Shown piece by piece: positions 10,818 to 47,532 of a stretch of 47,532 bases of DNA. The DNA lies in the IMG/VR virus record IMGVR_UViG_3300037264_001527, positions 1 through 47,532 of that record; one strand, written 5' to 3'. The position numbers and the translations under genes are program-made. This stretch comes from a virus. Below the pieces are notes generated by a model. It did not search any database and was not told the origin of the DNA. It saw only the letters and a list, made by a program, of their open reading frames with translations. The stretch's first letter is position 1; each line of letters opens with the position of its first letter.

Positions 10818-11071
10818 CAGATAGCCCCCTCCATGATCTGCTCACCCAGGTTTTTCCGCTTCTTCTCCAGTTTCCCCGAGCACATCGGGCAGGAGTGCTT
10901 GCCGTTGCGGTGAAAAGTCCAGCCTTCCCGATGCGCGGCCAGCTTGCACTCCCCGAACGTCTCGCCGAAGAAAGCCGCTTCGTTTTTCGTCGAGCTCCAC
11001 CACCGCACGTCTGGGCAATAGCCCTTGGTATCGCATGTCACTATCAGGGTGTAACCGCTTGTCTTGATCAT
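10817..11071 (-). CDS. Small Cys protein of unknown function
   Basis: 84 residues from ATG 11071, with GGAGGAGG just upstream. The N-terminus is beta-rich and hydrophobic (GYTLIVTC). CPMCSGKLEKKRK near the C-terminus gives a CxxC and a basic tail. Further Cys at residues 15, 20 and 42 could complete a zinc site. Not recognised. Confidence 0.62.
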   Translation of the reverse strand: MIKTSGYTLIVTCDTKGYCPDVRWWSSTKNEAAFFGETFGECKLAAHREGWTFHRNGKHSCPMCSGKLEKKRKNLGEQIMEGAI

Positions 11072-11099
11072 TGTGCGTCCTCCTCCGTTTATCACAAGG

Positions 11100-11370
11100 T
11101 TAGCCGGAGCCGGAGCCGCCGGAGCCGTCGCCGTAGCCGGAGCCGTCGCCGTCGCCGTAGCCGTAGCCGTAGCCGTCGCCGTCGCCGTCGCCGTAGCCGT
11201 AGCCGTAGCCGTAGCCGTAGCCGTAGCCGGAGCCGGAGCCGGAGCCGGAGCCGTAGCCGGAGCCGTAGCCGGAGCCGTCGCCGTAGCCGGAGCCGGAGCC
11301 GGAGCCGTAGCCGGAGCCGGAGCCGTCGCCGTCGCCGTCGCCGTAGCCGTAGCCGGAGCCGTCGCCGGAG
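11100..11370. repeat. Hexanucleotide minisatellite
   Basis: Tandem 6-base units, read on the minus strand as GGC followed by TCC, TAC or GAC. Only the second codon varies. All lengths are multiples of three, so unit gain or loss keeps the frame open. Both strands are open in several frames over the whole tract. Confidence 0.9.
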
Positions 11371-11378
11371 CTACTCAT
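11100..11378 (-). CDS. Gly-X low-complexity repeat protein (X = Ser, Tyr, Asp)
   Basis: 92 residues, almost entirely alternating Gly with Ser, Tyr or Asp after the start MSSSGDG. The DNA is about 44 hexamers GGC plus TCC, TAC or GAC. AAAGGAG lies eight bases before the ATG, and the start overlaps the upstream stop, so it is placed as a true operon gene. The product would be disordered and acidic/aromatic, similar in pattern to phase-separating low-complexity domains. No function can be assigned. Confidence 0.62.
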   Translation of the reverse strand: MSSSGDGSGYGYGDGDGDGSGSGYGSGSGSGYGDGSGYGSGYGSGSGSGSGYGYGYGYGYGYGDGDGDGYGYGYGDGDGSGYGDGSGGSGSG

Positions 11379-11727
11379 TGATAGACTCCTTTGCTTTTGC
11401 GCTACACGGGATGATCTCGCAGACGCCGATCAGGGCAATCTCTGGGATGATGACATCCAATTTGCTACTACCAGCTATCACACCGTATTGCGCCACCCCA
11501 GACAGCGCGATGCCCTGTTTGGCTTTCCATTGCCACAGCCTGCGACTATTGCTCAAAATAGCCTGGTCTCCATTGGAGCTCACAAGCGTGCCAGCATGAA
11601 CCCCGGCATGATAGCAGCGAGCTATCACGTACTTGCCAACGAATGGATGGGCTGTCGGTGTCTCGGCTTTCTGGAACATCGCCGCTATAGCTTTCAATTC
11701 GCCATATGTCATTTCGTCAATATTCAT
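11371..11727 (-). CDS. Conserved phage protein, DUF6948-like
   Basis: 118 residues. VGKYVIARCYHAGVHAGTLV, SNSRRLWQWKAK and GIALSGVAQYG follow the order seen in the DUF6948 family of phage proteins, a small beta-rich domain of unknown function. GAGGAAC precedes the ATG. Its stop overlaps the start of the Gly-X repeat gene, and in my memory of phage genomes these two types often sit together. Confidence 0.68.
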   Translation of the reverse strand: MNIDEMTYGELKAIAAMFQKAETPTAHPFVGKYVIARCYHAGVHAGTLVSSNGDQAILSNSRRLWQWKAKQGIALSGVAQYGVIAGSSKLDVIIPEIALIGVCEIIPCSAKAKESINE

Positions 11728-11758
11728 TTCTGTTCCTCGCTTGTTTTATCGTAATTGA

Positions 11759-12382
11759 TCACATCAACCTCCTATGCTCAGCCATCACCATTTGTGTCAA
11801 GCGGCGGTTCTGCGCCGCCAACGCGGCATCCCTCGCGGCAACCCACGCGGCAGCCCTCGCGGCAGCCCTCGCGGCAGCCTCCGCGGCAGCCCACGCGGCA
11901 GCCCTCGCGGCAGCCTCCGCGGCAGCCCTCGCGGCAGCCCTCGCGGCAGCCTCCGCGGCAGCCCTCGCGGCAGCCCTCGCGGCAGCCTCCGCGGCAGCCT
12001 CCGCGGCATCCCGGATGCTTTCATCGCCCGTTTTGAGGTATTGAACCACCACCTCTGGAGCGGCCCATAGGTGGACAACATCCAACGCGCACCTCCGCGC
12101 AAACACTCGCAGGAGGGTCGAGCCGTCAATACCCCATAGATACGTGCGCTCCGTTGCCACCATTTTGTCATTCCCGTGGACCATGGTACCGCCCATATCG
12201 ACTCGCCATATGATTGGCCCAGCCGAGTATTTCAGGGCATCAATCAGTCGATTACTGCCGTGCAGCCCATGCTCGCACAGGATTGGCGTGCCCTTGATTT
12301 TGTGGGTGCGCCCAGTCACGATTCTGCGCCCGTCGCCATGAGCGAGGCGCCTATCTTCTGTTCCGAAATACCATGCCTTCAC
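11759..12382 (-). CDS. Conserved phage protein with C-terminal Ala-rich tetrad repeats
   Basis: 207 residues from GTG 12382, with GAGGAGG five bases upstream (a longer frame into RecT lacks support). MKAWYFGTEDRRLAHGDGR, CEHGLHGSNRLIDALKYSAG and FARRCALDVVHLW belong to a widespread phage domain of unknown function. After residue 132 come about 17 four-residue units A-A-A-X, with X = Arg, Glu or Trp, predicted as one long helix with X on a spiral face. The end (QNRRLTQMVMAEHRRLM) is basic. Confidence 0.78.
   Translation of the reverse strand: MKAWYFGTEDRRLAHGDGRRIVTGRTHKIKGTPILCEHGLHGSNRLIDALKYSAGPIIWRVDMGGTMVHGNDKMVATERTYLWGIDGSTLLRVFARRCALDVVHLWAAPEVVVQYLKTGDESIRDAAEAAAEAAARAAARAAAEAAARAAARAAAEAAARAAAWAAAEAAARAAARAAAWVAARDAALAAQNRRLTQMVMAEHRRLM
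11817..12013. repeat. 12-base tandem repeat in the Ala-rich gene
   Basis: About 16 units read on the minus strand as GCT GCC GCG plus AGG, GAG or TGG. The first three codons are nearly constant and the fourth varies. The first and last units are diverged (GAT, GTT). The period keeps the reading frame. Confidence 0.88.
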
Positions 12383-21858: not shown

Positions 21859-22361
21859 GGTGTTACCTCCAGCATCAGTTTAGCCAGGGCCATTGCCGCT
21901 AGATATTCCCCTGTTTTGCGCGGGTCATTATCCTGCGCCAAATTGTCGTTTAATTGCTGCTCGTTGCCAAAAAAACATCCGGCGCGGATGAAAAACCCGC
22001 AGTCAGTGAAATTGTAGAAATACACCATACTGCGACGGATGCCTATGGGACCGATTTGGACGTAGGGACGGAGGTGGTTCGATGGTGCATGACCGCCCTC
22101 GAAGCTGCACTCCTCGCCGAAGCGGCACCACTCGCCGAAGCTGCACCTCTCGCCGAAGCTGCACCTCTCGCCGAAGCTGCACCCCTCGCCGAAGCGGCAC
22201 CCCTCGTCGAAGCGGCACCACTCGCCGAAGCTGCACCACTCGCCGAAGCTGCCCCCCTCGCCGAAAGCGGCAATCTCTCGATAGTCACCTGATGGGCATA
22301 TCAGACACCCAAAATCATCCCTCTCAAATGCCGCCATATCCTCAACTGTGTAGGTTTTCAT
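21855..22361 (-). CDS. Hexapeptide-repeat protein (FGExCS units)
   Basis: 168 residues from ATG 22361 (GAGGAATT upstream). After the N-terminal [20 protein letters not shown], about ten six-residue units of the type C-S-F-G-E-W follow (about residues 33-92), then a folded end with [18 protein letters not shown]. Period six and regular Phe/Gly suggest a stacked beta solenoid like left-handed hexapeptide or pentapeptide-repeat folds. Such folds can mimic DNA or form scaffolds. The repeats are rich in Cys. Confidence 0.68.
22088..22265. repeat. 18-base tandem repeat in the FGExCS gene
   Basis: About ten units read on the minus strand as TTC GGC GAG followed by TGG, AGG or GGG, then TGC and AGC or CGC. 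Variation is mostly at the first base of the fourth and last codons. The period is a multiple of three, so unit number can change in frame. Confidence 0.85.
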
Positions 22362-34034: not shown

Positions 34035-35210
34035 ATGTCGTATACAAACTTTCCTAACGGCTTCGCGGGCGGCATAAGCGTTCGTGGAATGCCGTTACTG
34101 CAAATGCAGCCGGGAGCGGTCTTCTATTGCGGCAACGGTCCAATAATGATCGATGACGCAGTTGGTGGCTCGAACGGAAATCGGGGGACCTTCCAAGATC
34201 CTCTTGGAACTCTTACCTACGCGGTCAATACGAAGTGCAGGCCCGGACGCGGAGATATTGTCTTCGTCTTGCCGAACCATAAAGAGACTATCTCCAACGC
34301 GACGACCCTGTTGTTGCAGAATTCGGGCGTGGCTGTGGTGGGTCTAGGGGCGGGGTCTAGTCGCCCGACCTTCACCTTCAGCACAGCGACGGCGGCTAAC
34401 ATCCCTGTCTGGGGCGCGAACATGAGCATCCAGAACTGCCTGTTCGTAGCGAACTTCGCTGACGTAACCTCCTTATTCACCTCCGACGATGGGAGCGTTA
34501 CTGCCTCCATTGCAGGGGAACTGATGACGGTGACAGCCTCTGGTTCGGGCACTCTGGCTCGGGGCCTGACTCTTAGCGCCACCACGGTGACTGCGGGGAC
34601 GGTGATTCTGGAGCAGGTTTCTGGCACGACCGGCGCTGTAGGAACCTATCGGGTCTCTCCATCTCAGACAGTGGCCTCGACAACCATCACCACTCGGCCT
34701 AGAGACTTCGCAATTGACCGTTGCGAGTTCAGGGATACGAGCAGCATTCTCAATGCCCTTAGCATAATGACTCTCTCGGGGACGGCGAATGCGGATGATG
34801 GTTTCAGCTTCACTAACAACCGGATCTCAAGCCTTGGGACGACTGCGGCGACAACCGCGATTATCCTGGGTGCGGCGATTGACCGGATGACGGTGAATGG
34901 GAACTTCGGAAACTGGGCTGTGTTGAACGATACTGCCGCGATGATCGCAGGTGGGGCGCACAACATGACCAACTTCGAGTTCGGGTATAACGTCCTGAAT
35001 CGGCCGAACACCAGTTCGACTAGCGGTTCGTTCATCAGTTCGTCCTCGACTGCCTGCACCGGTCACTGCCATCACAACATGTTGTGGCAGTTGGATGGTG
35101 ATGCGGGCATCTGGATCGCAACTGGAACGAAACTCGCTTTCAGTGAGAACTACAGCCCGATTACCGGTGCTGCGGACAAGAACGGCCTTATCAACCCGGC
35201 TGCGGCATAG
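34035..35210 (+). CDS. Beta-helix-like virion protein with inserted Ig-like repeat domain
   Basis: 391 residues. [20 protein letters not shown] and repeated NCLF/DRCEF/FTNNRI turns look like a right-handed beta helix, as in attachment or capsid-bound proteins. Residues about 155-225 ([20 protein letters not shown], then [19 protein letters not shown]) form a small repeat domain also seen inserted in other phage structural proteins. Possible head fibre or receptor-related role. Confidence 0.68.
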
Positions 35211-35227
35211 CCTAGAGGAGCATTACC

Positions 35228-35860
35228 ATGAGCGAAATATTACAAGGCGATTACTTAGCCGCGGAAGAGGGGAAATTCTTCACTTCGTGGCTCGGGGCGA
35301 CGGCGAACACTGCCGTCGCAACCACTACCCAGGCGCTGGGCACAACCAGCCCGAGCTTGGTGATCTTCAACTCGCAGCCGGAAGGCGGGCGCAATATCTA
35401 CATGCGCTTTGCGAAGTTCGAGATCACGGCCGCTACGACCGGTCTGACGACTGTAGAGCATGTCGGTGTCCTCAACTCTGGTTCGGTTCATACGACCGTT
35501 GGCACTCTGATGAGCACCCCGGAAAATGTGAATGGAGCATCTGGCAATGCGTCGCTCACCCGCCTCTACGGTGGGGTGAATGTGATGGCGACGCCAGCGG
35601 CGGCCAGCCGGATCATCCACACGGGGACAGTCGATACATCAATCCCGATCGTTCTGGACAACTGGGTTCTTGCCTATGGCGAACCTGTCAGTTCCGGATC
35701 GAACCTGATTGGTACGAAGACCCTGGTGAAGCAGATTACCGTGCCTATCCCGCCGGTCATCATCGCGCCACAGCAGTTCTACACCCTGGGTTTCTGGGGC
35801 GCGAGCTGGGCGGCATCAGCCCCGACCTACCGTATGTCGGTTGGCTTCATCGAAAAGTAA
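35228..35860 (+). CDS. Structural protein, beta-rich
   Basis: 210 residues. SEILQGDYLAAEEGKFFTSW, RNIYMRFAKFEITAATTGL, and RMSVGFIEK at the end. Same layout (small N-terminal helix, beta domain, C-terminal strand) as the next gene, so the two may be distant paralogues. Likely virion component. Confidence 0.6.
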   Translation: MSEILQGDYLAAEEGKFFTSWLGATANTAVATTTQALGTTSPSLVIFNSQPEGGRNIYMRFAKFEITAATTGLTTVEHVGVLNSGSVHTTVGTLMSTPENVNGASGNASLTRLYGGVNVMATPAAASRIIHTGTVDTSIPIVLDNWVLAYGEPVSSGSNLIGTKTLVKQITVPIPPVIIAPQQFYTLGFWGASWAASAPTYRMSVGFIEK

Positions 35861-35878
35861 CCCAAAGGAAACCATGAA

Positions 35879-36406
35879 ATGAGCAGCATCGACACAATTG
35901 CATATGGGCGGGCAGGTCAAATCTACACCGCCTCCAATGTCTCTGCGAAGATCATCACCGTTGTCGGAACCGCGATGACGGGGCTGATCCTCTACAATCC
36001 GATCGGATCGGGCAAGTACGTCTCGCTGCTGGATGCAGGATATAGCCTGACGACAGCGCTCGGATCGATCGCCTCGATCGGGGTTGCGATATCCCCGACA
36101 CAGCCGGTCATCCCCTCCAGCAATACGGTGGGTAGCGCGGTGATCAAGTCGGCTAACGGCGGAACGGTTGGTTCGGTCTGTTCGGCTTGGGATATCTCGA
36201 CCCTCGGAGTGGCCTGCGTGGTACAGCGCTGGTTTGCGGGGTTGAACTGGATCACCAGCGGATCTGGCCAAGCTCCTTACCAGTTCGACACCAAGATCGA
36301 TGGTGCGCTGGGCTTGGTTCCGGGCGCGGCAGCCTGCTTCGCGGGTATCGGCGGAACCCTTCCGACAGGGTTGGGTTCATTCAGCTACGTTGAGGTTCCC
36401 CTGTAA
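35879..36406 (+). CDS. Structural protein, beta-rich
   Basis: 175 residues. DTIAYGRAGQIYTASNVSAK, NPIGSGKYVSLLDAGYSLT, and the end GSFSYVEVPL. Similar architecture and length to the gene before it. Probably another virion component. Confidence 0.58.
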   Translation: MSSIDTIAYGRAGQIYTASNVSAKIITVVGTAMTGLILYNPIGSGKYVSLLDAGYSLTTALGSIASIGVAISPTQPVIPSSNTVGSAVIKSANGGTVGSVCSAWDISTLGVACVVQRWFAGLNWITSGSGQAPYQFDTKIDGALGLVPGAAACFAGIGGTLPTGLGSFSYVEVPL

Positions 36407-36415
36407 GGAGGACAT

Positions 36416-36847
36416 ATGGGCCAAGTCACGGTAAGAAAGGTCGTCGAGGGTCCGAGTCAAATAACCATTCGGGTGGATTTGCTGAGTGATGGTACGGGGG
36501 AGTTGGAGAACTACGTTATCCTCTCCCCCGAGGATTTGGTACCAAGGCCGGTGCCGCTGAACATCCCTGCCTTCCGCCTTACTCAGGCGTGGTATGGAAC
36601 CGTCTGGTTCGATGTGACGGTGAAGGTTGGAACAGTGATTCCTTCACCGATCTGGACGTTCGCAAGGGACACCGGCCCACACGTTGACTTTCGGAGCTTC
36701 GGTGGGTTGATTGATCCGGCGGTCTACAGTAATCCTCTGCCTGATGACGATGGGAAGCTGACTATTTCGACCAATGACTTTAACGTCGCTGGTTCGATTG
36801 GTACGCTTGTGCTTGAACTGCGAAAGACCAATCAGGCGTCCGGATGA
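36416..36847 (+). CDS. Structural protein, beta-rich
   Basis: 143 residues. VEGPSQITIRVDLLSDGTGE, YGTVWFDVTVKVGTV, and DDDGKLTISTNDFNVAGSIG point to a jelly-roll or Ig-like domain. AAGGAGG precedes the ATG. Function in the virion is inferred from position. Confidence 0.58.
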   Translation: MGQVTVRKVVEGPSQITIRVDLLSDGTGELENYVILSPEDLVPRPVPLNIPAFRLTQAWYGTVWFDVTVKVGTVIPSPIWTFARDTGPHVDFRSFGGLIDPAVYSNPLPDDDGKLTISTNDFNVAGSIGTLVLELRKTNQASG

Positions 36848-37038
36848 TCAGACAGCAGAGAGAAAGAGGTGGGAGGGCTCCGAGGAATCGGGGCTCTACC
36901 AGATTTGGCGTAGTGGCTACCGTAATGGCTACCAGTGGCGGTGGTGGAGCGGATGATGGCACAGAATCTGTGCGCATAACGTCAGTACCCGACACCCGCG
37001 TTACGTCCACAAGTGATCGACGAATAGCCCTTACTTAG
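36844..37038 (+). CDS. Small basic protein before the fibre gene
   Basis: 64 residues, Arg/Gly-rich at the N-terminus (RQQRERGGRAPRNRGSTRFG), then a Gly/Ser stretch. ATGA overlap with the gene before. Unrecognised. Confidence 0.5.
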   Translation: MIRQQRERGGRAPRNRGSTRFGVVATVMATSGGGGADDGTESVRITSVPDTRVTSTSDRRIALT

Positions 37039-37049
37039 GATGGATTGAA

Positions 37050-38672
37050 ATGGCTGATATAACTATTTCCGGTTTAACATCGAAAGCAACCCCCGCCACT
37101 ACTGATGAGATCGAGATCCAAGAGACTGGCGGAGGAATGTCCAAGAAAACAACGATTGGGGATATTTGGACGAAAGCCGGGTCGTTCGTTGCCTCTGCTG
37201 TAGCGGCGCTTACAACTGCCGCAGAATCATGGATTGGACCGTCGTCGACAACGGGGATTTACTTCAAGAGCGGCAACGTCGGCATCGGGACGACGAGTCC
37301 GGGGGGAAAATTGGAGATAACAACTACAAGATTACCATTTATTGTTGATTCTAAGGGATATGTGGGAATTGGGACGACCACACCTTCTGAGTTTTTAGAG
37401 ATGCGACCCATGCAAGTCGTATCAGAAAATGCAAATATTGCGCTGTGGGGCAACATTAATAGTAATAGTGGCGATAAATCCAATATTACATTCAAACATA
37501 CAATCGGTGGCGGACAGCCAGAATCTTGGATAGGGCAAATTTTGGCAACAACGGATGGTGTAACAAACCGTTTAGATTTCAAAACTGGAACATGGAATAA
37601 CAATAAGACTGTAGCAACAGCGATGTCTATTTTAGGAAGCGGCAACGTCGGCATCGGGACGACGGGGCCGCTAACCATAACCGAAATACAAAACGGCCTT
37701 ACCACCACCGGGGCGATTCTCACGCTATCGTCTAAAGAGACATCTACCGTTGATGGGGATGTATTAGGACGCATAGACTTCCGCGCTGCACTGGATGCTG
37801 CTGGTACTGATGCAATACTTGCGGGAGCGTCTATTTGGGCGGAAGCAGATGACACCTTCTCAGCTTCCGTCAACTCAACTGAGCTTGTGTTTGGCACCGC
37901 CACTACCTCTGTTGCCATTGAGCGTATGCGCCTTGATAGTGCCGGTAATCTTGGTTTGGGTACGCCTACCCCAGGGTATCAGCTTCAACTATCCACGGAC
38001 TCCGCTGGTAAACCAGGAGCTAGTGGCCAATGGACCGTAGTATCCGATGAGCGTATCAAGACCGGCATCGAACTGGCAGACCTGGTCCGCTGTTATGAGA
38101 TTGTCAAGGCGCTCCCCCTGAAACGCTTCTCTTGGGCGGAGGGCGTTTACACCGAGAAACAAGCATCGGATAGAACCAATTTAGGGTGGATGGCCAAAGA
38201 CGTACAGTCGGTATTCCCCAAGGCGGTTTCCGTCAAACCATTTACCCTGTTTCCCGAGATCCCCGATGGCGAGGAAGAGTACGAAGAACAAGACTTCGTT
38301 ATGGAACAGGTTGAGGAAGAGAAAGTCTCGGTTGAGATAAGAGATGGTCAGGCTGTTCATGTCAAGACCCTAGTCAACACAGAACGAAAGGTTCTTCTGT
38401 TTGACAGGATTCCTTTGGTTGATGAAGCGGGGGCGCCCATAACAAAAGATGTTGAGATATCCCCAGCAACAGAAACTGAGAAGGCAGTCATGGAGACGAT
38501 TGCCGTTTTCCACGATCTGCCGCGTATGGTCAAGAAGACCAGGGCGAAAGTTCGTCACGACGTTATCGAGGATTGCCTCGATCTGAACAGCGGACAAATC
38601 TATGCCGCACTGTACGGGGCGGTACAGGAAATAATGCAAAGGTTAGAAGCATTGGAGCTAAAGGCCCTGTGA
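37050..38672 (+). CDS. Tail fibre with C-terminal self-cleaving chaperone (peptidase S74)
   Basis: 540 residues. Four fibre repeats of the GNVGIGTTSP type lie at about residues 74, 108, 197 and 299. The C-terminal domain starts at Ser332-Asp333 (SDERIKTGIELADLVRCYEI), the canonical S74 cleavage site, and includes NLGWMAKDVQSVFPKAV and an end helix (EIMQRLEALELK). The mature fibre would be about 331 residues. The chaperone has a roughly 110-residue insertion. An AT-rich cassette between two direct repeats forms part of the shaft. Confidence 0.9.
   Translation: MADITISGLTSKATPATTDEIEIQETGGGMSKKTTIGDIWTKAGSFVASAVAALTTAAESWIGPSSTTGIYFKSGNVGIGTTSPGGKLEITTTRLPFIVDSKGYVGIGTTTPSEFLEMRPMQVVSENANIALWGNINSNSGDKSNITFKHTIGGGQPESWIGQILATTDGVTNRLDFKTGTWNNNKTVATAMSILGSGNVGIGTTGPLTITEIQNGLTTTGAILTLSSKETSTVDGDVLGRIDFRAALDAAGTDAILAGASIWAEADDTFSASVNSTELVFGTATTSVAIERMRLDSAGNLGLGTPTPGYQLQLSTDSAGKPGASGQWTVVSDERIKTGIELADLVRCYEIVKALPLKRFSWAEGVYTEKQASDRTNLGWMAKDVQSVFPKAVSVKPFTLFPEIPDGEEEYEEQDFVMEQVEEEKVSVEIRDGQAVHVKTLVNTERKVLLFDRIPLVDEAGAPITKDVEISPATETEKAVMETIAVFHDLPRMVKKTRAKVRHDVIEDCLDLNSGQIYAALYGAVQEIMQRLEALELKAL
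37269..37295 (+). repeat. Direct repeat, left copy (fibre cassette)
   Basis: 27 bases identical to 37638-37664, encoding the S-G-N-V-G-I-G-T-T repeat. The 342 bases between them are AT-rich, unlike the rest of the gene. Confidence 0.9.
37638..37664 (+). repeat. Direct repeat, right copy (fibre cassette)
   Basis: 27 bases identical to 37269-37295. Distance between copies is 369 bases, a multiple of three, so recombination between them would delete or duplicate exactly 123 codons in frame. Confidence 0.9.
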
Positions 38673-38684
38673 GGGGATCATTCC

Positions 38685-39404
38685 ATGACCGCACCTAGCG
38701 ATAACACTCCGCTCAGTATCATCCCTGATGCCTACTTCGATGCTGGCCTTCTTCAAGAAGGACAGCCGCCGAGTTCCGAGCAGATGCTTACTGGAATGCG
38801 GAAACTCATTGACCTGATTCGCTTGTGGCAGACGCAGGGACTGAAGCTCTGGTTGCAGCAGGACGTGGCGATTACTCTAGTCGAAAGTCAGGCAAGGTAC
38901 CAGATGGGACCGGGTCTGGACGTAAGCATGGTCAAGCCAACGCGTGTAACTCAGGGCTACTACCTGACTACATCCACTGGGGACAGACGCCCGCTGAGGG
39001 AGCTTTCGCGTCAGGAATACACTACCCTCGGTAATACGACGACGGAAGGCGCAACTAACTCCTACTTCATCGACAAGCAAGCGGCGAGTCTGGATGTCTA
39101 TCTCTGGCTGGTGCCGGATGCTACCGCCGTCAGCGATGGGACTGTTCATCTAATCACTCAGTATCAGGTTACCGGACCCGTACTCTTAACTGAGACGATG
39201 AACTTCCCTGATGAGTGGAGAATAGCTCTTCGATGGGGACTGGCGGATGAAGTCTGTACCGGCCAACCACAGGCGATCATGGACCGATGCGCACAAAGAG
39301 CAGTGACGTACAGGACGATGCTGGAGGACAATGACGTAGAGGACGCTTCGACTTTCTTCACTCCTGATAGCCGAAGCGGGTATTCATCTGGAAGATTCAG
39401 ATAA
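38685..39404 (+). CDS. P22 gp4-like head-tail adaptor
   Basis: 239 residues. PPSSEQMLTGMRKLIDLIRL, LWLQQDVAITLVESQARYQM and VTQGYYLTTSTGDRRPLREL, RQEYTT follow the pattern of P22 gp4 (tail accessory factor), which docks to the portal and stabilises packaged DNA. The neighbour is a gp10-like protein as in P22. Its stop overlaps the next start by one base. Confidence 0.82.
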   Translation: MTAPSDNTPLSIIPDAYFDAGLLQEGQPPSSEQMLTGMRKLIDLIRLWQTQGLKLWLQQDVAITLVESQARYQMGPGLDVSMVKPTRVTQGYYLTTSTGDRRPLRELSRQEYTTLGNTTTEGATNSYFIDKQAASLDVYLWLVPDATAVSDGTVHLITQYQVTGPVLLTETMNFPDEWRIALRWGLADEVCTGQPQAIMDRCAQRAVTYRTMLEDNDVEDASTFFTPDSRSGYSSGRFR

Positions 39405-40831
39405 TGGCTCAACAAGCTCCCACGGTTGCAATGCCGCCGAGGATTCCGCTGGTAGTAGAACCGGCGAACCGGACTGACGATACGCTCAAGGATGCGAAGC
39501 TCGTCAACGCCTATGTGGAATTCAATCCGAAAACTGAGGAATACTGGATCTACAAGCGGCCGGGACTGCTTCAGTCTGGAGCGACGTTGTCCGGAAATGG
39601 CTATGGCGTGCATAACTGGAACGGAAATATCTACTCGATCTTCGGCACGACTCTGTACAAGGATGGGGTCAGTATCGGTACGGTTGATGGAACCGGAGGA
39701 GTTTACAAGTTCAGCGCAAGTCTAGGTTCGACTCCAAGGCTCCAGTTGGGGAACGCGGTAAAGGCGTACAACTGGGACGATACGACGTTAACACAGATCA
39801 GCGGAGTCAACTTTCCAGGAAATAGCTACGCGGATGCGGCGGTTAAGGGATGGGCCTATCTCGATGGAAGCACCTATGTTCTGGATGTTAAAAGCTACAT
39901 CCATGGATGCGATGTCGTTGCTGGCCTGAATCGCCCGGATCTGTGGACTGAACCGCTCAATCTCCTTGGCGCGCAGATAGAACCGGATCGTGGAATCTTC
40001 CTGACGAAGCAGCTTGTTTATGTCCTGGTCCTCAAGGAATGGTCCACCGAGGTGTTCTATGATGCACAGAATACTACTGCCTCTCCTCTTGGCCCGGTTC
40101 AGGGTGCGAAGATCGACTATGGGTGTGTCAATGCCGATTCCGTTCAGCAGATCGATAGTTCCCTTCTTTGGGTGGCGACGAATAGGTCTTCGGGTGCTCA
40201 GATTATCATGGTCGATAATCTCAAGGCCGACATCGTCTCGACAAAGGCCATTGAGCGGCTTTTAGGATCTGCTGACTTCACTAGCATGGCCAGCTTTGCC
40301 TTTCGCTATGGTGGGCACAAGTTCTACGGATTTACCCTGAAGAATGACAACATCACCCTGGTCTACGATCTTGTGGATAAGTTCTGGGCGCAGTGGACGG
40401 ATGAGAATGGGGACTACTGCAAGTTCGTTTCCAGCACCTTCCTTGCGGGCACTGGACGCATTCTTCAGCACGAGACGAACGGGAAGTTGTACCTGATGGA
40501 TTCGGGGTACACCAACGATGATGGAGAGACTATCACGGTGGATATCTATACTCCGAATTGGGATGGTGGAGTACGGCGAAAGAAGCAGATGAACATGATG
40601 GAGTTCATAGGGGATCAGGTTTCTGGTAGTGAGCTTCAGGTGCGAACGAATGACTTTGACTATGATTCCGCGCGCTGGTCCGAATATCGCCGAGTGGACA
40701 TGGGGGCGCAAAAGCCTACGCTTACGAACTGCGGTACGTTCATGCGTAGAGCTACTCATATCAGGCACCAGAGCAACACCAAGATGCGCCTGCAAGCGGT
40801 TGAGTGCCAGCTCGATATCGGGGTGCTCTGA
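39404..40831 (+). CDS. P22 gp10-like tail hub protein
   Basis: 475 residues. IPLVVEPANRTDDTLKDAKL, VNAYVE, then YWIYKRPGLLQSGATLSGNG match the N-terminus of P22 gp10-type packaged-DNA stabilisation proteins. The body is a beta propeller-like series (GNIYSIFGTTLYKDGVSIGT and similar). It would form the tail tube end below gp4 and carry the fibres. Stop overlaps the next ATG. Confidence 0.84.
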   Translation: MAQQAPTVAMPPRIPLVVEPANRTDDTLKDAKLVNAYVEFNPKTEEYWIYKRPGLLQSGATLSGNGYGVHNWNGNIYSIFGTTLYKDGVSIGTVDGTGGVYKFSASLGSTPRLQLGNAVKAYNWDDTTLTQISGVNFPGNSYADAAVKGWAYLDGSTYVLDVKSYIHGCDVVAGLNRPDLWTEPLNLLGAQIEPDRGIFLTKQLVYVLVLKEWSTEVFYDAQNTTASPLGPVQGAKIDYGCVNADSVQQIDSSLLWVATNRSSGAQIIMVDNLKADIVSTKAIERLLGSADFTSMASFAFRYGGHKFYGFTLKNDNITLVYDLVDKFWAQWTDENGDYCKFVSSTFLAGTGRILQHETNGKLYLMDSGYTNDDGETITVDIYTPNWDGGVRRKKQMNMMEFIGDQVSGSELQVRTNDFDYDSARWSEYRRVDMGAQKPTLTNCGTFMRRATHIRHQSNTKMRLQAVECQLDIGVL

Positions 40832-41376
40832 TGCCCGGAGTATTCCAATCACCACCAACCTTCACGCTTCCTATAAGCATTGATCCAATAACCGGAGAGA
40901 TGTCCTTTAGTCCAATCTGGATCAATTGGTTTCTTGAATTAACGGCCAGACTTGATTCAGCAGGGTTACCGCTCCTGTTGAATGAGACAACTCTCAATGG
41001 AGAGCTGATTGGAGCAGATAACGTCATCTCGGGAGTGTTCTTTAGGGATGTTGGAGAGGTTGTTGTTGCGATTGGGAATACCGGAGGAGGAACGCAAGAT
41101 TTCGACATTGAACTGGGCAACGTCTTTACGGCAACAGTTACCACTTCAGCGAATACCTTTACCTTCTCCCATCCATCTCCGACGGGATACGCTTGCAGTA
41201 TCACGATTATCCTTACCAACGGAGGAAGTCAGACAGTCAACTGGCCGGCAAGTGTGGATTGGACGGATGGAACAGCACCAGATTTAACCGTTGCTGGAGT
41301 GGATGTTCTGGAATTCCTCACGGTAAATGCCGGTACTACCTGGCATGGATTTGCCTCCTCTTTGGATAGCAGCTAG
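40831..41376 (+). CDS. Small tail protein with beta-sandwich end
   Basis: 181 residues from ATG 40831. MPGVFQSPPTF and FSPIWINWFLELTARLD form a typical N-terminal anchor of phage tail accessory proteins. The C-terminal half (ANTFTFSHPSPTGYACSITI, then VNWPASVDWTDG) is a beta sandwich often found at tail ends. Its stop overlaps the GTG of the adhesin gene. Confidence 0.68.
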   Translation: MPGVFQSPPTFTLPISIDPITGEMSFSPIWINWFLELTARLDSAGLPLLLNETTLNGELIGADNVISGVFFRDVGEVVVAIGNTGGGTQDFDIELGNVFTATVTTSANTFTFSHPSPTGYACSITIILTNGGSQTVNWPASVDWTDGTAPDLTVAGVDVLEFLTVNAGTTWHGFASSLDSS

Positions 41377-44300
41377 TGTCCCTTCATCACGCCATGCGTA
41401 GAGCGGCTTCTGGAAAACCAATGGTCAGGATTCCGCTACAGACCAGTTTGGGAGCGGGCATCACTCTGACCAGAGCAGTTATTGGTGTGTCGATTGATTT
41501 TGAAGGGCTCATCGTCCCGGCTCTAGCTAATGAACTGCGTGTGCGAGGGGGGCACCGTGTAGAGAATATCCTCCTTGCGACAGAGGATAATACCAACGTA
41601 GCCTTCACGGCTGCTGGTGGGGCTACGGCAAGTTCTGCGACTCAGGTTACCTTTGACGGCACGGCAAACGCGAACATCTCACAGACTGCTACGATTTTAG
41701 ATGATGCTTCGGGCGCAGGGAATAGGACATTCGTCTTATCGGTAGACGTTGCTTTAGTCTCAGGGACGCTTTCGGCTGCGGCTGATGTAACGCTAAGGAT
41801 TGCCGGGAATGCCATTACTGCTGCTTCCCGTGAGATTGGATTGACGATTACAGGGACTTCACAAAGGTTCGAACTGACGGCCCTTACCGACGCTGCTGGG
41901 ACTACGGTTATTCCATCTGTGGAGTGTGATGTTTCTGCGGTCCTGACGATTACCCGATGGCAATTGGAGGAGGTTTCTGGACAAACCGATAAGAGACCTG
42001 GGGAGTACGTCTCCGTCGGTGTGCTGACTGCGCCTTTCCATGGAGCGGGTGTGGCGAGCGTTCAGTGGTTTGATACCCTTCCTGCAAACACAGTATCTGC
42101 TTCGGGTATTGTTACAGAGACCACAGGGCCCACGATATCCCTCGCCACTGCCAGCTTTATGGAGTGGTACGACCTCGTCTCTGGAACCGTCGCGGCAATT
42201 ATGACGGACAGCTCCTCACTAACCAGCGATCTAACGGTCATTGCTTATCTCAATCTTGCCGATTGGACGCCGTCTGTTTACGGGACCATACTTGGGAAGT
42301 TTGAGGACAACAATTTCACTGCTAACAAGTTGTCTTTTCGGTTTGGTATTGAATCCGGTGGAGAGCTTAAATTTCAGACATCCCCCGACGGAACGGCAGT
42401 GGCAATTGTCTCCTCCACGAGTTCCGTTGCAACTGGGATTGATGCCAGTGTCGGTAGATGGGTAAGAGCCTCTTTCAACAACACCAGCAATACGGTTAAT
42501 TTCTTCACGTCTGATCAGTCTTTTGCTACACCGTATGCCAGCTTGAACTGGACGCAGTTAGGGACGGCGGATGTGGCCCACGCCACGACCGGCGTATATG
42601 ATGGAGGTGCGGGCCCCCTGGTCCCGGTTACCGTTGGTTATGATAGACAGGCCGCCGTTATTGAGGATCACCTGCTCTCTGCTGGAACAGCAGGACGGTG
42701 TTATCGTGCGGCAGTTTTCGCGGCCACAAATGCTACTGGAACGCCGGTGTTAAATTTCAATCCAGGTCAGTGGGAGAATAGCCTAACTTGGTGGGATGAC
42801 TACAGCAACCTGTGGCGTGCCAGTGGTCAATCACTTTACGGCCCAAAGCGGTTGTATGCTTACTTCGGGCAGTCGATAACAATTGGTCCAGATCCTCCGC
42901 CGGACATATACATTTCGACCCCTGACAGTGCTGCTGCAAGCCAAACAGGAAGCCTGTGCTTAATTGCTCATGTGAATCTAGTGTTTGGCCCGAGCTATGA
43001 ATCGCCTTTTGTTTCTAAGTGGAGCAGAGCGAACCAGAAGTCATATTGGTTTGGATACAGTGCAGGCTATCTGACTTTTGTAACATCTATAGATGGAGCA
43101 GCGGAAGTCACTTCAGAAAGCTCAGTAGCAGGACCATTTACTGCGACAGATTACGCAGGCGGTTACTGGATAATGGTGGTCTTTGACGACACCAGCGATA
43201 CCGCTACCTATTACACATCCACAGATTCTCCGCTTGTAGATCCGAACAAAGTCTCATGGACACAGTTAGGTACCCCCGTCGCCCACGTTACCTCCGGGAT
43301 TTATGATGGAACCGCTTTGCTGATAGTTGGGCACAATGTCAGTGGTGAGGGCTCTAGTATCTTTTCTGTACAGCGCGCCGTTCTAATTTCTGGCACAGAT
43401 TATACTGCGGCCCCAGCCGTTGACTTTAATCCTGTTGAGTACGATAGGAGTGGGTTGTCTGGCACGGTTACATGGACCGCTAGTACTGGGGAAGCGTGGA
43501 CCGTTAGCACCCATGCAGCATTAGTTGGATACAGTAACCCTGTTAGCGACTGGGATGCCAAGGGTCCGCTAGGCGCGTGGATTGAGGGAGCGAGAACAAA
43601 CCAAGTTAACCACAACGATGTCTCGTGGAACGCTCCTGTTGGGTGTACTGAGACTTGGAATGGAGGCCGATCACCGAACGGGCTCTATGAAGCGGTTTTG
43701 ATCATCGGAACCGGAGGGGGGGCAGGAAATCTATACTCCCGTAAGGTGCATAATCTAGGCGCGACAGGAACCTATTGTGTATCAGCGTATGTCAAGGCGG
43801 TTAGTGGCGCAAGTTGGGCAATGCTTCACGCATTAACATTTACTAACCAAGCTGTTATGTACTACTCCATAAGGAGTCCTATAGGTGTCGGGGCGTCAAG
43901 TACTGGGGCGGCAACGCAAGGCGTTATTCCCTATCCTAATGGATGGGTACGTATCTGGTTTAGCTGGGATCCTGGGGCTGACGTCAACGGCGAGATTCGA
44001 ATCCGAATGGCTGGAGGGGATGGAAGCTCTTCTGTTACTCGAACCTCGGCCTCTCAGATGCTGTGGTGGGGGCTACAGGTGGAACTGGGTACGTTTCCGA
44101 GCAGCCCATACATTGACTGGGCTCTTACAGGAACGCCTGTTGCCAAGGCTGCTGACAACCTAGTTCTTCCTGCCTCCGGATACATCCTTGACGATGCTGG
44201 CATAATCTCAGCGGAAGTACAGACGGACTGGAAGACGGCTGCTGCAAACGCTTGTGTCATCGGGCGGAATATCGTGAATCTATATTCCGCGAGCGGAGAT

Positions 44301-44558
44301 GCAGCGACCTTGATTACCGCCAATGACGGAACCAATACCTCCGTCTCTCCGGCAAGAGATTCCATGTTTTACGCTTCGCATCAGGTGAAGATGAAGTGGG
44401 GTGCTGCTCTTACAGCGTACAAGGATGGGAAACCAGACCCATCTCCAGCGTCCTATGACGGGGCGTTGGGAACTGGCGATATCGGATTGGGATCAACCAA
44501 TGCAGGAGCTTCCCACTTGTTTGGGACCATGCGCAACGTCAAACTGAGTGCGGTTTGA
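41376..44558 (+). CDS. Large adhesin-like tail protein with repeated lectin-type domains
   Basis: 1060 residues from GTG 41376. After an N-terminal region (LRVRGGHRVENILLATEDNT), the protein contains a carbohydrate-binding-like domain (about 60-220) and a LamG-like domain (about 265-470). A second related LamG-like copy follows (about 510-700), then another CBM-like domain (about 740-920) and a final LamG-type end (about 940-1060). The two LamG copies share the order W-x-R/M-x-x-F-x-x-T-S-x-T and NWTQLGT/SWTQLGT. It probably binds a surface glycan. Confidence 0.75.
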   Translation: MSLHHAMRRAASGKPMVRIPLQTSLGAGITLTRAVIGVSIDFEGLIVPALANELRVRGGHRVENILLATEDNTNVAFTAAGGATASSATQVTFDGTANANISQTATILDDASGAGNRTFVLSVDVALVSGTLSAAADVTLRIAGNAITAASREIGLTITGTSQRFELTALTDAAGTTVIPSVECDVSAVLTITRWQLEEVSGQTDKRPGEYVSVGVLTAPFHGAGVASVQWFDTLPANTVSASGIVTETTGPTISLATASFMEWYDLVSGTVAAIMTDSSSLTSDLTVIAYLNLADWTPSVYGTILGKFEDNNFTANKLSFRFGIESGGELKFQTSPDGTAVAIVSSTSSVATGIDASVGRWVRASFNNTSNTVNFFTSDQSFATPYASLNWTQLGTADVAHATTGVYDGGAGPLVPVTVGYDRQAAVIEDHLLSAGTAGRCYRAAVFAATNATGTPVLNFNPGQWENSLTWWDDYSNLWRASGQSLYGPKRLYAYFGQSITIGPDPPPDIYISTPDSAAASQTGSLCLIAHVNLVFGPSYESPFVSKWSRANQKSYWFGYSAGYLTFVTSIDGAAEVTSESSVAGPFTATDYAGGYWIMVVFDDTSDTATYYTSTDSPLVDPNKVSWTQLGTPVAHVTSGIYDGTALLIVGHNVSGEGSSIFSVQRAVLISGTDYTAAPAVDFNPVEYDRSGLSGTVTWTASTGEAWTVSTHAALVGYSNPVSDWDAKGPLGAWIEGARTNQVNHNDVSWNAPVGCTETWNGGRSPNGLYEAVLIIGTGGGAGNLYSRKVHNLGATGTYCVSAYVKAVSGASWAMLHALTFTNQAVMYYSIRSPIGVGASSTGAATQGVIPYPNGWVRIWFSWDPGADVNGEIRIRMAGGDGSSSVTRTSASQMLWWGLQVELGTFPSSPYIDWALTGTPVAKAADNLVLPASGYILDDAGIISAEVQTDWKTAAANACVIGRNIVNLYSASGDAATLITANDGTNTSVSPARDSMFYASHQVKMKWGAALTAYKDGKPDPSPASYDGALGTGDIGLGSTNAGASHLFGTMRNVKLSAV

Positions 44559-44570
44559 TAAGGACAGACT

Positions 44571-45689
44571 ATGGCTACCACAGATTTTGTAGATGAAAGC
44601 ACGGTAATCGAAGCCGACTGGCTCAATGACGTAGATGCACACGTCTACAGCACGACTCCGCTTTCCGTAGCTGCCTCGACGGACACAACGATGTGGCCGG
44701 TACTGGCAGGATCGGTCTCTGGAGCGCAGGCTGCCCTCGTAAGCGTGCTCCTCACCTACAATGCCACTACAGGGATAATGACTACGCCTGGGTTCGTCAC
44801 CACGGCTACTGCGGCTCTTACTACGGCTGCTGAGGCTTGGGTAGGGCCTTCATCGACTTTAGGCGTCTACTTCAAGAGCGGGAACGGAGGAACCGGGACG
44901 ACAGATCCACAATCCCAGTGGGAAGTGCGCGGACCTATCGGAACGGGAGCGACGCCTGCCGGGATTCTGACCCTCTCGACGAAAGAGACTACCATCATCG
45001 CTGGCGATCAGCTCGGGAGAATCAACTTCTTAGCGCCTGAAGAGGCTTCTGGGACGGACGCGATCCTGCCAGGTGCCGCGATATGGGCTGAGGCTGAGGA
45101 CACCTTCACGGCCTCTGTGAACTCTATAGCGATCGTTTTCGGGACGGCGACCACTTCTGTTCCTGTTGAGCGAGGGCGTCTTACCTCTGGCGGGGCCTGG
45201 GCTCTGACGGAAATGGCTGCCGCCGATACCGACGTTGCCGGAAGGGGCCAGACATGGGTTAAGAATACGACTCCGAACGAATTCTGGTTCACCAATGATG
45301 CCGGGACAGACTTATGTCTCTCTGGAGAGCAGTACACCGCTGCTTCGACCGCCTGCACGGGAGCCATTACGACTGCCTGTGTATGGAAGCTCACGAAGAC
45401 TGGGAACGTCGTTACGCTAACTCTTCCAGCAGTTCAGGGTAATGGCGTGGCTACGACGAACTTCACGGTTGGGCTTACTATCCCGGCAGACTACCGTCCG
45501 GCGGCTGACATCGCCTCAGTAAGTGCGCCGATCATCAACAACGCGGCCAACCAATCGGCTCCCGGTGCCATTAAGGTAACGTCGGCTGGAGTAATCTCGG
45601 TGTGGCTGAATGGTACTTTCTCGGGGAACTTCACCGTGACGGCTAATGCTGGGCTGGCGTACACTACGTCAGTGAGATGGACGATTTAA
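44571..45689 (+). CDS. Second tail fibre, related to 37050-38672
   Basis: 372 residues. TVIEADWLNDVDAHVYSTTP near residue 10 is a typical fibre anchor. ALTTAAEAWVGPSSTLGVYF and the following ILTLSTKETTIIAGDQLGRI, FLAPEEASGTDAILPGAAIW, AEAEDTFTASVNS match the first fibre closely but without the AT-rich cassette between them. The last 120 residues are a different beta-jelly-roll-like end (NVVTLTLPAVQGNGVATTNF). No S74 chaperone. Confidence 0.78.
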   Translation: MATTDFVDESTVIEADWLNDVDAHVYSTTPLSVAASTDTTMWPVLAGSVSGAQAALVSVLLTYNATTGIMTTPGFVTTATAALTTAAEAWVGPSSTLGVYFKSGNGGTGTTDPQSQWEVRGPIGTGATPAGILTLSTKETTIIAGDQLGRINFLAPEEASGTDAILPGAAIWAEAEDTFTASVNSIAIVFGTATTSVPVERGRLTSGGAWALTEMAAADTDVAGRGQTWVKNTTPNEFWFTNDAGTDLCLSGEQYTAASTACTGAITTACVWKLTKTGNVVTLTLPAVQGNGVATTNFTVGLTIPADYRPAADIASVSAPIINNAANQSAPGAIKVTSAGVISVWLNGTFSGNFTVTANAGLAYTTSVRWTI

Positions 45690-45700
45690 GGAGAAGGATT

Positions 45701-47314
45701 GTGAGCGAGCAGATCAACTATGATGAGATATACGGGAACATAAATCCCTTCTCGACTCCCGGAAGCATAGAGAGTATCGGCGCTCCTGGGGCACCAACAC
45801 CTTCAACTGATTACGTGGGCCAGCCCGCACAAAGCCTTCCTGGATTACCTCCTGACTTTCCTGGTTTCAAGTCAGCAGAAGAGTCGGCGGCCTACTGGAA
45901 GTGGAACAAGGAAGTCCTGACTCCAGCCTATCAGAAGGCAAATGAAGGAAAGAGCTTCTTTGTGGGGATGAGGGATTGGGCTGAGACAATGTTCAGCATG
46001 GGGCTGAACACCATGTTCCCCGGTGCTGGGCTTGTCGCGAACAAGTTGCTTGGAAGCGAAGGCTCGCAGGAGATGTATCAGCAGACTGCGCCGCTGCAGA
46101 CTATGGCTATGATAGCTGGAATGGTTCCAGAGCCTACGTCACTTCTCGACTACAGCGGATCTTCTCTCTATCCAGCTGCTGGTTCTGCTGGCGCTTTTGG
46201 TGCGCCATCGATGGGAGCCTTTAGTCCAACCGCCGCGGGAGCAAGCCTTGCTGGCCTCGGGACGAGCCTTCCTGGTGCGAGTCTGCTGAACTACGGCGTA
46301 TCGGATACCGCTCTTGGCGCTACAGCACAGCAGGCGACTGGTGCCCTTGCCGGTGGTACTAGCGCAGGGGCTTCTATGGGATTACCACCTGGAGCGGTTC
46401 TCAGCGCGCTTGGGAGCCCAGTTGGAACTGGTGCTGGAAGCATTTTCGCTCCGAGTGGGCCTCCAGATGTCGGTGGATTCAGCCCGGAGATTGATCCTTT
46501 CGCTGGGATGCCGGTAGCTCCACCTGTAGCACCATCGTCACCTTTCGCCAATATGCCCACCAACGTTCCTGACGTGATGACAGTCACTGGGGCAGCTCCG
46601 ACAGGGGTAAACATTCCCGCCATACTTGGTGGTGCTGGTGCTGCGGCTGTACTTGGAGGACTGGTGACTGGAGGCGGTGGTGCGGCTCTTCCTGCGACTA
46701 CTAGTGGTGAGGTTGCTCTCCCTTATCCAAATCCAGATGCAGTTGCGCCATTTTCAAATCTAGGAGCTGGTGCTACAGGGGCTGCTGCTGGAGGAGCCCT
46801 TTCTACGCTTGCAAAGTGGCTCGATCCAGTGATGTCGGTCGCCTCGGGAGCGCTTATGTTGGGTAACGCCAACGACATCTCCGACACGGCTGGCGATGCG
46901 ATTGCAGGCTCTTCACCTTGGGCTACAGGGACTGGGATCACCAATGCAGGGGCCGCGCTTACTGCGGCGATCAACGGAGACTTTGCGAACGATCCGGGGT
47001 TTGCCCTTGCTCAGCGGGCGGCGGCGGCTACGTCCTCAACTCAACCCGGTGGGTACTCTGCTCAGGCGGCTGCAAATGCTGCCTTGATGTACCAGAACAA
47101 CAGGATTCAGGCGCTGAGCGGCCCGGCTGGGGTTGGGTTCAATCCGGCCAATGGATACAACACGGCTCTGACTGGAGCCGGTGCGGCGAACTCTCTCTAC
47201 GGACAGGGCCTGGCTAACATCAGCTATGGGGTTAATCAAGCTCTCGGCGGGACGGGTATGCCGCCATGGCTGACACAGTGGCTGATCCAGAATGGCCTGC
47301 GGAGGGCAGCATGA
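45701..47314 (+). CDS. Gly/Ala-rich virion protein, ejection-type
   Basis: 537 residues from GTG 45701, behind AGGAGAAGG; an ATG at 45677 lies within the preceding gene and lacks a ribosome site. SAEESAAYWKWNKEVLTPAY and SFFVGMRDWAETMFSMGLNT are followed by a hydrophobic Gly/Ala-rich body (ILGGAGAAAVLGGLVTGGGG) and a helical end with QALGGTGMPPWLTQWLIQN. Such glycine-rich membrane-active stretches are typical of ejection proteins. ATGA overlap with the next gene. Confidence 0.65.
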   Translation: MSEQINYDEIYGNINPFSTPGSIESIGAPGAPTPSTDYVGQPAQSLPGLPPDFPGFKSAEESAAYWKWNKEVLTPAYQKANEGKSFFVGMRDWAETMFSMGLNTMFPGAGLVANKLLGSEGSQEMYQQTAPLQTMAMIAGMVPEPTSLLDYSGSSLYPAAGSAGAFGAPSMGAFSPTAAGASLAGLGTSLPGASLLNYGVSDTALGATAQQATGALAGGTSAGASMGLPPGAVLSALGSPVGTGAGSIFAPSGPPDVGGFSPEIDPFAGMPVAPPVAPSSPFANMPTNVPDVMTVTGAAPTGVNIPAILGGAGAAAVLGGLVTGGGGAALPATTSGEVALPYPNPDAVAPFSNLGAGATGAAAGGALSTLAKWLDPVMSVASGALMLGNANDISDTAGDAIAGSSPWATGTGITNAGAALTAAINGDFANDPGFALAQRAAAATSSTQPGGYSAQAAANAALMYQNNRIQALSGPAGVGFNPANGYNTALTGAGAANSLYGQGLANISYGVNQALGGTGMPPWLTQWLIQNGLRRAA

Positions 47315-47532
47315 GCGAACTTTGGGGTTGGGCTGCTGGTGCTCGTGAGTACAAGAAGGATCAGATGGATGATGCACTCAAGCAAGTGCAGGCTCTAGCG
47401 TCACTCGCGCAGATAAAAGAAGCCAATTCCATGTCTGCCCAACGCGAAGTAGCAGCCGCCATGACGCTAGAGGATATCGAGTGGGGGAAGAAGGCTGTTG
47501 CGGTTATGCAGGAGAACCGTCAGAAACTGGAT
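47311..47532 (+). CDS. Ejection-type virion protein, N-terminal part (continues at base 1)
   Basis: The ATG at 47311 overlaps the stop of the preceding gene in an ATGA arrangement. The 30 codons from 47311 to 47400 join in frame to base 2, giving a protein of about 429 residues. The start MSELWGWAAGAREYKKDQMD is helical and charged. The position after a Gly/Ala-rich virion protein and before a 915-residue protein fits the internal ejection proteins of P22-like podoviruses. Sequence similarity is not obvious by eye, so the function rests on context. Confidence 0.75.
   Translation, partial: MSELWGWAAGAREYKKDQMDDALKQVQALASLAQIKEANSMSAQREVAAAMTLEDIEWGKKAVAVMQENRQKLD
47400..47532. repeat. Terminal redundancy, right copy
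   Basis: Second copy of bases 1-133, with one G/A difference at 47526. It lies inside the gene that starts at 47311 and continues at base 1. The mismatch shows real variation or a read error, so the two ends were not simply copied from each other. Confidence 0.95.

Follow-up and report, generated by a model that had tools for sequence, protein, structure and literature searches.

A compositionally foreign cassette between two copies of a hinge word in an S74-type phage tail fibre gene

The tail fibre gene P0001 of a 47,532-nt viral record (IMG/VR IMGVR_UViG_3300037264_001527, analysed over its whole length and called the window here) carries a compositionally foreign insert between two identical, in-frame direct repeats, and this cassette is real and part of a broader mode of fibre evolution. 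With a probability of about 0.72, we read it as the product of in-frame cassette exchange by short-homology recombination at the repeated word, which we call the hinge word. Five observations bear on this reading: the exact word stands at both joints, colinear relatives are free of the insert, motif-bounded cassettes occur in other phages, the cultured cyanophages S-CRES1 and S-CRES2 differ in a conversion-like manner, and one synonymous spelling is reused across unrelated genes. The insert would be one beta-helix unit of an S74, MAT-like (mosaic adhesive trimer) trimeric fibre, with the hinge word encoding the capping loop between units and the cassette sitting between two copies of it, and cassettes might enter, leave, duplicate or be replaced through recombination or gene conversion across a word of 24-30 nt. 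The products of such exchange would stay open because the hinge word is in frame and lies at a structurally neutral boundary.

The fibre gene, its insert and insert-free joints

P0001 matches Peptidase_S74 in Pfam (PF13884, E 2.9e-9, 37.5 bits against a cut-off of 22) and the tail fiber family phrog_9942 in PHROG (E 1.8e-15), and the SDxxxK motif of its S74 chaperone is intact. The features discussed here, and the evidence for each, are as follows.

37050..38672, + strand: S74-type tail fibre gene P0001, 540 aa (open frame, Pfam Peptidase_S74, PHROG match)
37269..37295, + strand: hinge word copy 1 (AGC plus the 24-nt word W), encoding SGNVGIGTT (exact repeat)
37296..37637, + strand: AT-rich cassette, 342 nt, aa 83-196 (GC 0.401, GC3 0.287; missing at the same joints in relatives)
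37356..37379, + strand: internal capping-loop motif GYVGIGTT, with codons unlike those of the hinge word (sequence reading)
37638..37664, + strand: hinge word copy 2, the same letters as copy 1 (exact repeat)
37665..37943, + strand: downstream unit, common to the paralogue P0002 and 72 viral loci, the closest being L398 (sequence comparison)
37944..37967, + strand: fourth capping-loop motif, GNLGLGTP (sequence reading)
38043..38228, + strand: S74 intramolecular chaperone/protease domain, SDERIK at aa 332 (Pfam, motif reading)
44571..45689, + strand: second fibre gene P0002, colinear round the joint, without the cassette (alignment)
44877..44903, + strand: eroded single hinge of P0002, SGNGGTGTT (21/27 nt as in the hinge word)

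Four capping loops can be read in P0001, at aa 75, 103, 198 and 299. The consensus for this loop in Bdellovibrio MAT fibres, V-G-x-G/N-x-x-x-P-x-x-x-L (a symbol seems to have dropped out of the printed text; PMC10769870), is matched exactly at aa 77 and 105, and at aa 301 L replaces V. A preliminary description of this DNA had been silent on the insert's own capping loop (37356), on the loop at 37944 and on the S74 chaperone.

That description had proposed 27-bp direct repeats, 369 bp apart, round an AT-rich insert of 342 bp and about 37% GC, and the repeats are exactly so: AGCGGCAACGTCGGCATCGGGACGACG occurs at 37269-37295 and 37638-37664, 369 nt from start to start, both copies in the frame of the open reading frame and both encoding SGNVGIGTT. 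The identity is exactly 27 nt, as the preceding and following bases differ, and the hinge copies in direct orientation within 35000-47532 are these two exact words and the eroded one in the paralogue. The low GC of the insert also stood, at 40.1% instead of the earlier figure; of 4719 windows of 342 nt, taken every 10 nt along the record (mean 53.8%, sd 3.9), none reaches so low a value. In GC3 the insert lies under all 622 windows of 114 codons from 22 other open reading frames (minimum 0.30), while its codon-usage likelihood is only mildly odd (19/622 windows as low or lower). Searches with the insert (viral scan, local tblastn and phage tblastn) found no donor beyond motif-level similarity and no other carrier of the insert itself.

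On its capping-loop motif and database matches, the insert is one fibre unit together with its boundary loop; a beta-helix fold is likely for it, though not proven. Three Bdellovibrio fibre sequences are the PDB sequence matches of P0001 (E 2e-4, 0.012 and 0.67), and when the cassette is modelled as a monomer (mean pLDDT 67.5), its best 11 Foldseek matches in the PDB are all Bdellovibrio MAT fibre chains, but at E 4.6e-3 at best and a TM of about 0.3.

The same joints can be read in genes that are free of the insert. The second fibre gene, P0002, reads TALTTAAEAWVGPSSTLGVYFKSGNGGTGTT...ILTLSTKETTIIAGDQLGRINF and is colinear with P0001 minus the insert, with 58% amino acid identity after the joint and an eroded copy of the hinge at it, so that the junction reported earlier in this gene is confirmed; a Pfam search found no S74 domain in P0002. 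Two further viral loci each hold one flank beside a different module: L234 matches AESFIGPSSTTGVYFK and then W (24/24 nt), with another module following, whereas L398 has the downstream unit (84% amino acid identity) preceded by a GNVGIGTT that is 23/24 nt as in the window, with another module ahead. In the flanks of L234 only 20% of identical residues use the same codon, yet W itself is the same at every base. The preliminary description would have been refuted had all relatives carried the insert at uniform composition; this is not what was seen, the insert being missing at the same joints in P0002, L234 and L398.

An improbable alternative is vertical inheritance, in which the ancestor had the unit, P0002 lost it, and the two words reflect nothing but the conservation of a peptide and its codons, with no mobility involved. 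The motif is indeed strongly conserved at the protein level, and from the two genes alone a loss in P0002 would be as parsimonious as a gain. However, peptide conservation does not suffice to explain the repeat, because the probability of choosing the same codons for SGNVGIGTT twice (9/9), under the phage's own usage, is about 1e-5, and the motif inside the insert (37356) is spelled with other codons. The GC3 of the insert and the different modules at the same joints in L234 and L398 also speak against descent without exchange. Cassette exchange, with this phage having probably gained the unit rather than kept it, fits these observations better, and the earlier proposal of an in-frame cassette that can be gained or lost holds up on the foreign composition, the insert-free joints, and the cassettes swapped or duplicated at the motif elsewhere.

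A wider comparison used the adjacent gene (38685-39404), whose homologues define relatives L004-L010. The slot upstream was read in L004, L005, L006, L007 and L010; the remaining two, L008 and L009, begin within the match to that gene and were left out. In none of the five was a VGIGTT fibre found upstream of the homologue; the slot between the capsid and connector genes holds unrelated proteins, and therefore the fibre position is itself hypervariable. The slot protein of L005 consists of short LSG-type repeats.

Two other kinds of repeat were seen in the window. Its ends (1-126 and 47400-47532) are identical repeats of about 126 nt, as expected where a genome is complete and has direct terminal repeats, or where a record was assembled as a circle. 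GC-rich short-period repeats at 11118-11362, 11842-11990 and 22118-22252, in or near open reading frames 10895-11599, 11706-12044 and 21954-22292, are built of six-base units (GCCGTA/GCCGGA/GCCGTC) and also of GGCAGCCCTCGC-type and GCCGAAGCTGCACCTCTC-type units.

One synonymous spelling of GNVGIGTT

The preliminary description did not recognise the repeat as a protein motif of many fibres, nor that phages and bacteria with no close relation to this one use the same DNA spelling for it. The word W (24 nt, GGCAACGTCGGCATCGGGACGACG) encodes GNVGIGTT, and the 26-mer AGC+W has matches in 34 other viral stretches; each of its 37 matches encodes SGNVGIGT(T) and lies in an open frame of 167 aa or more. 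As that sample was chosen by the word itself, three more were chosen by peptide only (GNVGIGTTxP): V1, with at least 120 viral stretches; V2, with at least 112 new loci from the TGP subset; and G, with at least 117 loci from bacterial and archaeal genomes. Among the matches listed, W accounts for 4/221 sites (3/120 loci) in V1, 41/339 sites (17/112 loci) in V2 and 15/202 sites (6/117 loci) in G, where each gene's codon usage predicts 0.01, 0.01 and 0.05 sites, respectively, or 60/762 sites over the three samples with about 0.07 expected. It is the commonest encoding of the peptide among the matches listed in every sample, jointly with two others in V1.

The same excess appears when genes are compared in pairs. 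With one site taken from each of 375 genes, all eight codons are identical in 352 pairs, compared with 13.6 expected from codon usage and 13.4 after position-wise codon shuffles within GC3 classes (maximum 23 in 20 runs), and the GC3 of the genes that bear W runs from 0.22 to 0.63. Even the order of the glycine codons is particular: GGC,GGC,GGG is found at 126 of the 762 sites, GGC,GGG,GGC at 13 and GGG,GGC,GGC at one, and where the other five codons are those of W, 60/87 sites have the first of these orders. Among whole genomes of the Patescibacteria (the phylum of G001), 18/286 contain W, in up to 12 copies, whereas neither the reverse control of W (0/286) nor any of four synonymous sister words (0/286; Fisher p 2.9e-6) is present in the same set; in the Omnitrophota (the phylum of G004), W is found in 10/117 genomes, one of them with 12 copies, the phylum names being those in the titles of records L277 and L318. 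Among viral contigs, 15 stretches match one or other of the four sister words in any frame, vs 34 for W alone. That the spelling is fixed across phyla is, as a fact, well supported. Exact W was absent from the cultured phages searched and from the sample's isolate genomes, every record found to carry it being derived from a metagenome, and a 33-nt hinge searched against a plasmid collection returned no S74 fibre among the best 20 of 63 matches, one of which was full-length, at 85.3% identity.

Is the hinge kept beyond what common descent would leave? Over all spellings, for pairs with homologous but codon-diverged flanks, the hinge exceeds the flank in 34 vs 25 and 27 vs 21 cases, a weak excess (p 0.15 and 0.24), and mean pairwise codon identity along the motif has no general excess either, since genes of low GC have AT-rich codons in common through their usage; what signal there is sits in the tail of near-identical words. 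Hinges in general are therefore no more conserved than their homologous flanks, and only the W-bearing sites stand out. With partner loci from the samples not chosen by codon, at least 7/8 hinge codons are kept in 20/88 partners of an exact-W member, the flanks averaging 33% kept, vs 0/207 partners of non-W reference words (p 6e-12, uncorrected for kinship of the partners), which makes W special rather than every hinge.

These last results, together with the preference for W over sister words of the same peptide in the Patescibacteria, are what would be expected if selection on the hinge DNA or RNA, and not homologous recombination, fixed the spelling, through programmed ribosome pausing at rare codons, a hairpin (CGUCG..CGACG) or the site of some recombinase. 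We regard this as unlikely. Were pausing the reason, genes as far apart in GC3 as 0.22 and 0.63 would not be expected to use the same codons, and the existence of 538 different spellings implies that no one spelling is required. The hairpin (arms CGTCG/CGACG in W) was tried and rejected, the pairing excess coming from W-like words only: without words at most two codons from W, V3-T7 pairs number 131/310 against 125 +- 8 in shuffles, 242/1000 of which are as high. The N-T8 pair stays slightly high (106/310; shuffles 93.6 +- 4.0), as does the control pair N-T7 (143; shuffles 132.4 +- 3.9).

Exchange at the motif in other fibre genes

When 410 motif genes were compared all against all (segments of at least 90% identity and at least 100 nt, internal ends de-duplicated), 11/29 segment ends fall within the motif in both genes, where random placement gives a mean of 2.0 and a maximum of 8 in 2000 runs; for the strict motif, 6/29 ends (random mean 0.9) are not beyond every run, because the random maximum is also 6. 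Four boundaries were read base by base. L122 and L193 have 333 nt in common at 99.1% identity, stopping on the last base of GNVGIGTT between unrelated flanks, and similarity likewise changes at the motif in L181/L257, L171/L242 and L140/L241. L140 is also 95.4% identical to L168 over 10.5 kb, up to a block of 1127 vs 1328 nt between motifs that is mostly non-homologous, although it includes one stretch of 88 nt and a few shorter ones that are similar. There is good support for module exchange at the capping-loop codons.

Units also recur within genes. Two patescibacterial fibre-like genes, L482 and L480, have 6 and 14 hinges, and some of their non-adjacent whole units are duplicated at 99.5-100%: in L482, on a contig of 818,817 bp, two non-adjacent motif-to-motif units of 291 nt are 100% identical, and in L480 a 195-nt unit recurs at 99.5%.

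A repeated word of 24-27 nt could also join fragments of different fibres during assembly, and chimeric cassettes, possibly including that of P0001, would result. Whole contigs do end within 130 nt of the word in 4/9 cases in the exact-word sample vs 2/30 in a codon-unselected one (Fisher p 0.018, counted by eye), and contig C8 of G002 begins with W. Frequent contig ends at W agree with the word having many different neighbours in one sample, but they also mean that a false join may lie behind any one swap read from a metagenome contig. As an account of the whole pattern, however, artefact is very improbable: the same synonymous spelling in many samples cannot arise in this way, swaps occur at words other than W too, with 1-9% divergence, the 818,817-bp contig has both W hinges and a duplicated unit, and the window record has 126-nt end repeats and an intact frame. 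In several bacterial genomes, contig starts at or just before a hinge word (G002:C8:1-24, G394:C3:3-26, G370:C29:54-77 and G124:C30:49-72) are a sign that the word breaks assemblies.

Exchange between hinges is also what two cultured cyanophages point to. S-CRES1 and S-CRES2 (L394/L395 vs L507/L508) are 95.7% identical over 37.2 kb, but in the fibre gene they reach 99.65%, which suggests a recent exchange of this gene as a whole. This ten-hinge gene differs at 14/3954 nt, and 7 of the 14 differences fall in the 240 nt of the hinges (p 7e-6). At each of the four hinges that differ, one phage has a word that recurs at two or three further hinges in the same gene, the other a word that recurs at no further hinge. 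This is the pattern that conversion between hinges would leave, which argues against artefact as it is independent of metagenome assembly; the hinge word of these phages differs from W.

Known systems and the meaning of a shared word

Phage genomes recombine at short conserved linker sequences, and phages of the P2, Mu, P1 and lambda types share segments of their tail fibres, exchanges that are not known beyond related phages. The hinge word resembles such linkers in that short homology at module borders would direct in-frame exchange, but here one synonymous word recurs in phages unrelated to one another and in bacteria of several phyla. Gin/Cin-type invertible cassettes of tail fibres likewise have a DNA joint inside the fibre gene that changes the tip; the repeats in P0001 are instead direct and in frame, not inverted. 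Targets of diversity-generating retroelements are recognised by a variable repeat that has a template repeat and a reverse transcriptase close by; in 35000-47532 the direct hinge copies are the three given above.

The closest relatives in protein architecture are the Bdellovibrio MAT fibres, which are described as beta-helix units with an S74 chaperone bearing SDxxxK and a conserved, beta-rich domain of about 130 aa after the signal peptide (PMC10769870). P0001 is like them in its capping loop (SGNVGIGTTSPxxKL), in the SDxxxK of its S74 domain and in its best sequence and fold matches, the fold match being weak, a likeness judged on the C-terminal S74 domain, the capping loop and the sequence and cassette matches. 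It is unlike them as a phage gene, and the available portion of PMC10769870 treats tip swapping at the protein level, with no DNA hinge word. Domain mosaicism of receptor-binding proteins, an ongoing exchange of fibre fragments between phages that resembles what we see here, has been described by protein profile comparison (PMC10684548); the text available from that study differs in naming no fixed nucleotide joint, and the words 'linker', 'breakpoint' and 'S74' are absent from it. Searches of the open-access literature, which did not cover subscription journals, found no paper on VGIGTT/GNVGIGTT or a DNA joint in tail fibers, on endosialidase in Patescibacteria, on S-CRES1, or on gene conversion, direct repeats or homogenization in tail-fiber genes; the papers that did come up deal with no joint of this kind, to judge by their titles and the openings of their abstracts.

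The agent of cassette exchange would be short-homology recombination by a phage annealing recombinase or by host RecA, and its outcome may be altered receptor binding, or even the change of host range that the preliminary description proposed. A more tentative possibility, which we think somewhat doubtful, is that W is a cross-phylum exchange handle through which fibre modules can recombine with one another whether they belong to phages, to Patescibacteria, to Omnitrophota or to other bacteria. Recombination would be more frequent between modules with the shared spelling, the spelling would spread in consequence, and its own use would keep W identical even where the surrounding codon usage and base composition run the other way.

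That phages shuffle their fibres is well established, whereas the DNA joints between unrelated phages have so far mostly been inferred. A word that breaks metagenome assemblies may also mislead them, and this one prompts us to ask what keeps a silent choice of codons the same from one phylum to the next. At the same time, one synonymous spelling at module borders is something physical that can be put to the test: with it, exchangeable fibre modules can be predicted and recombination breakpoints located in metagenomes.
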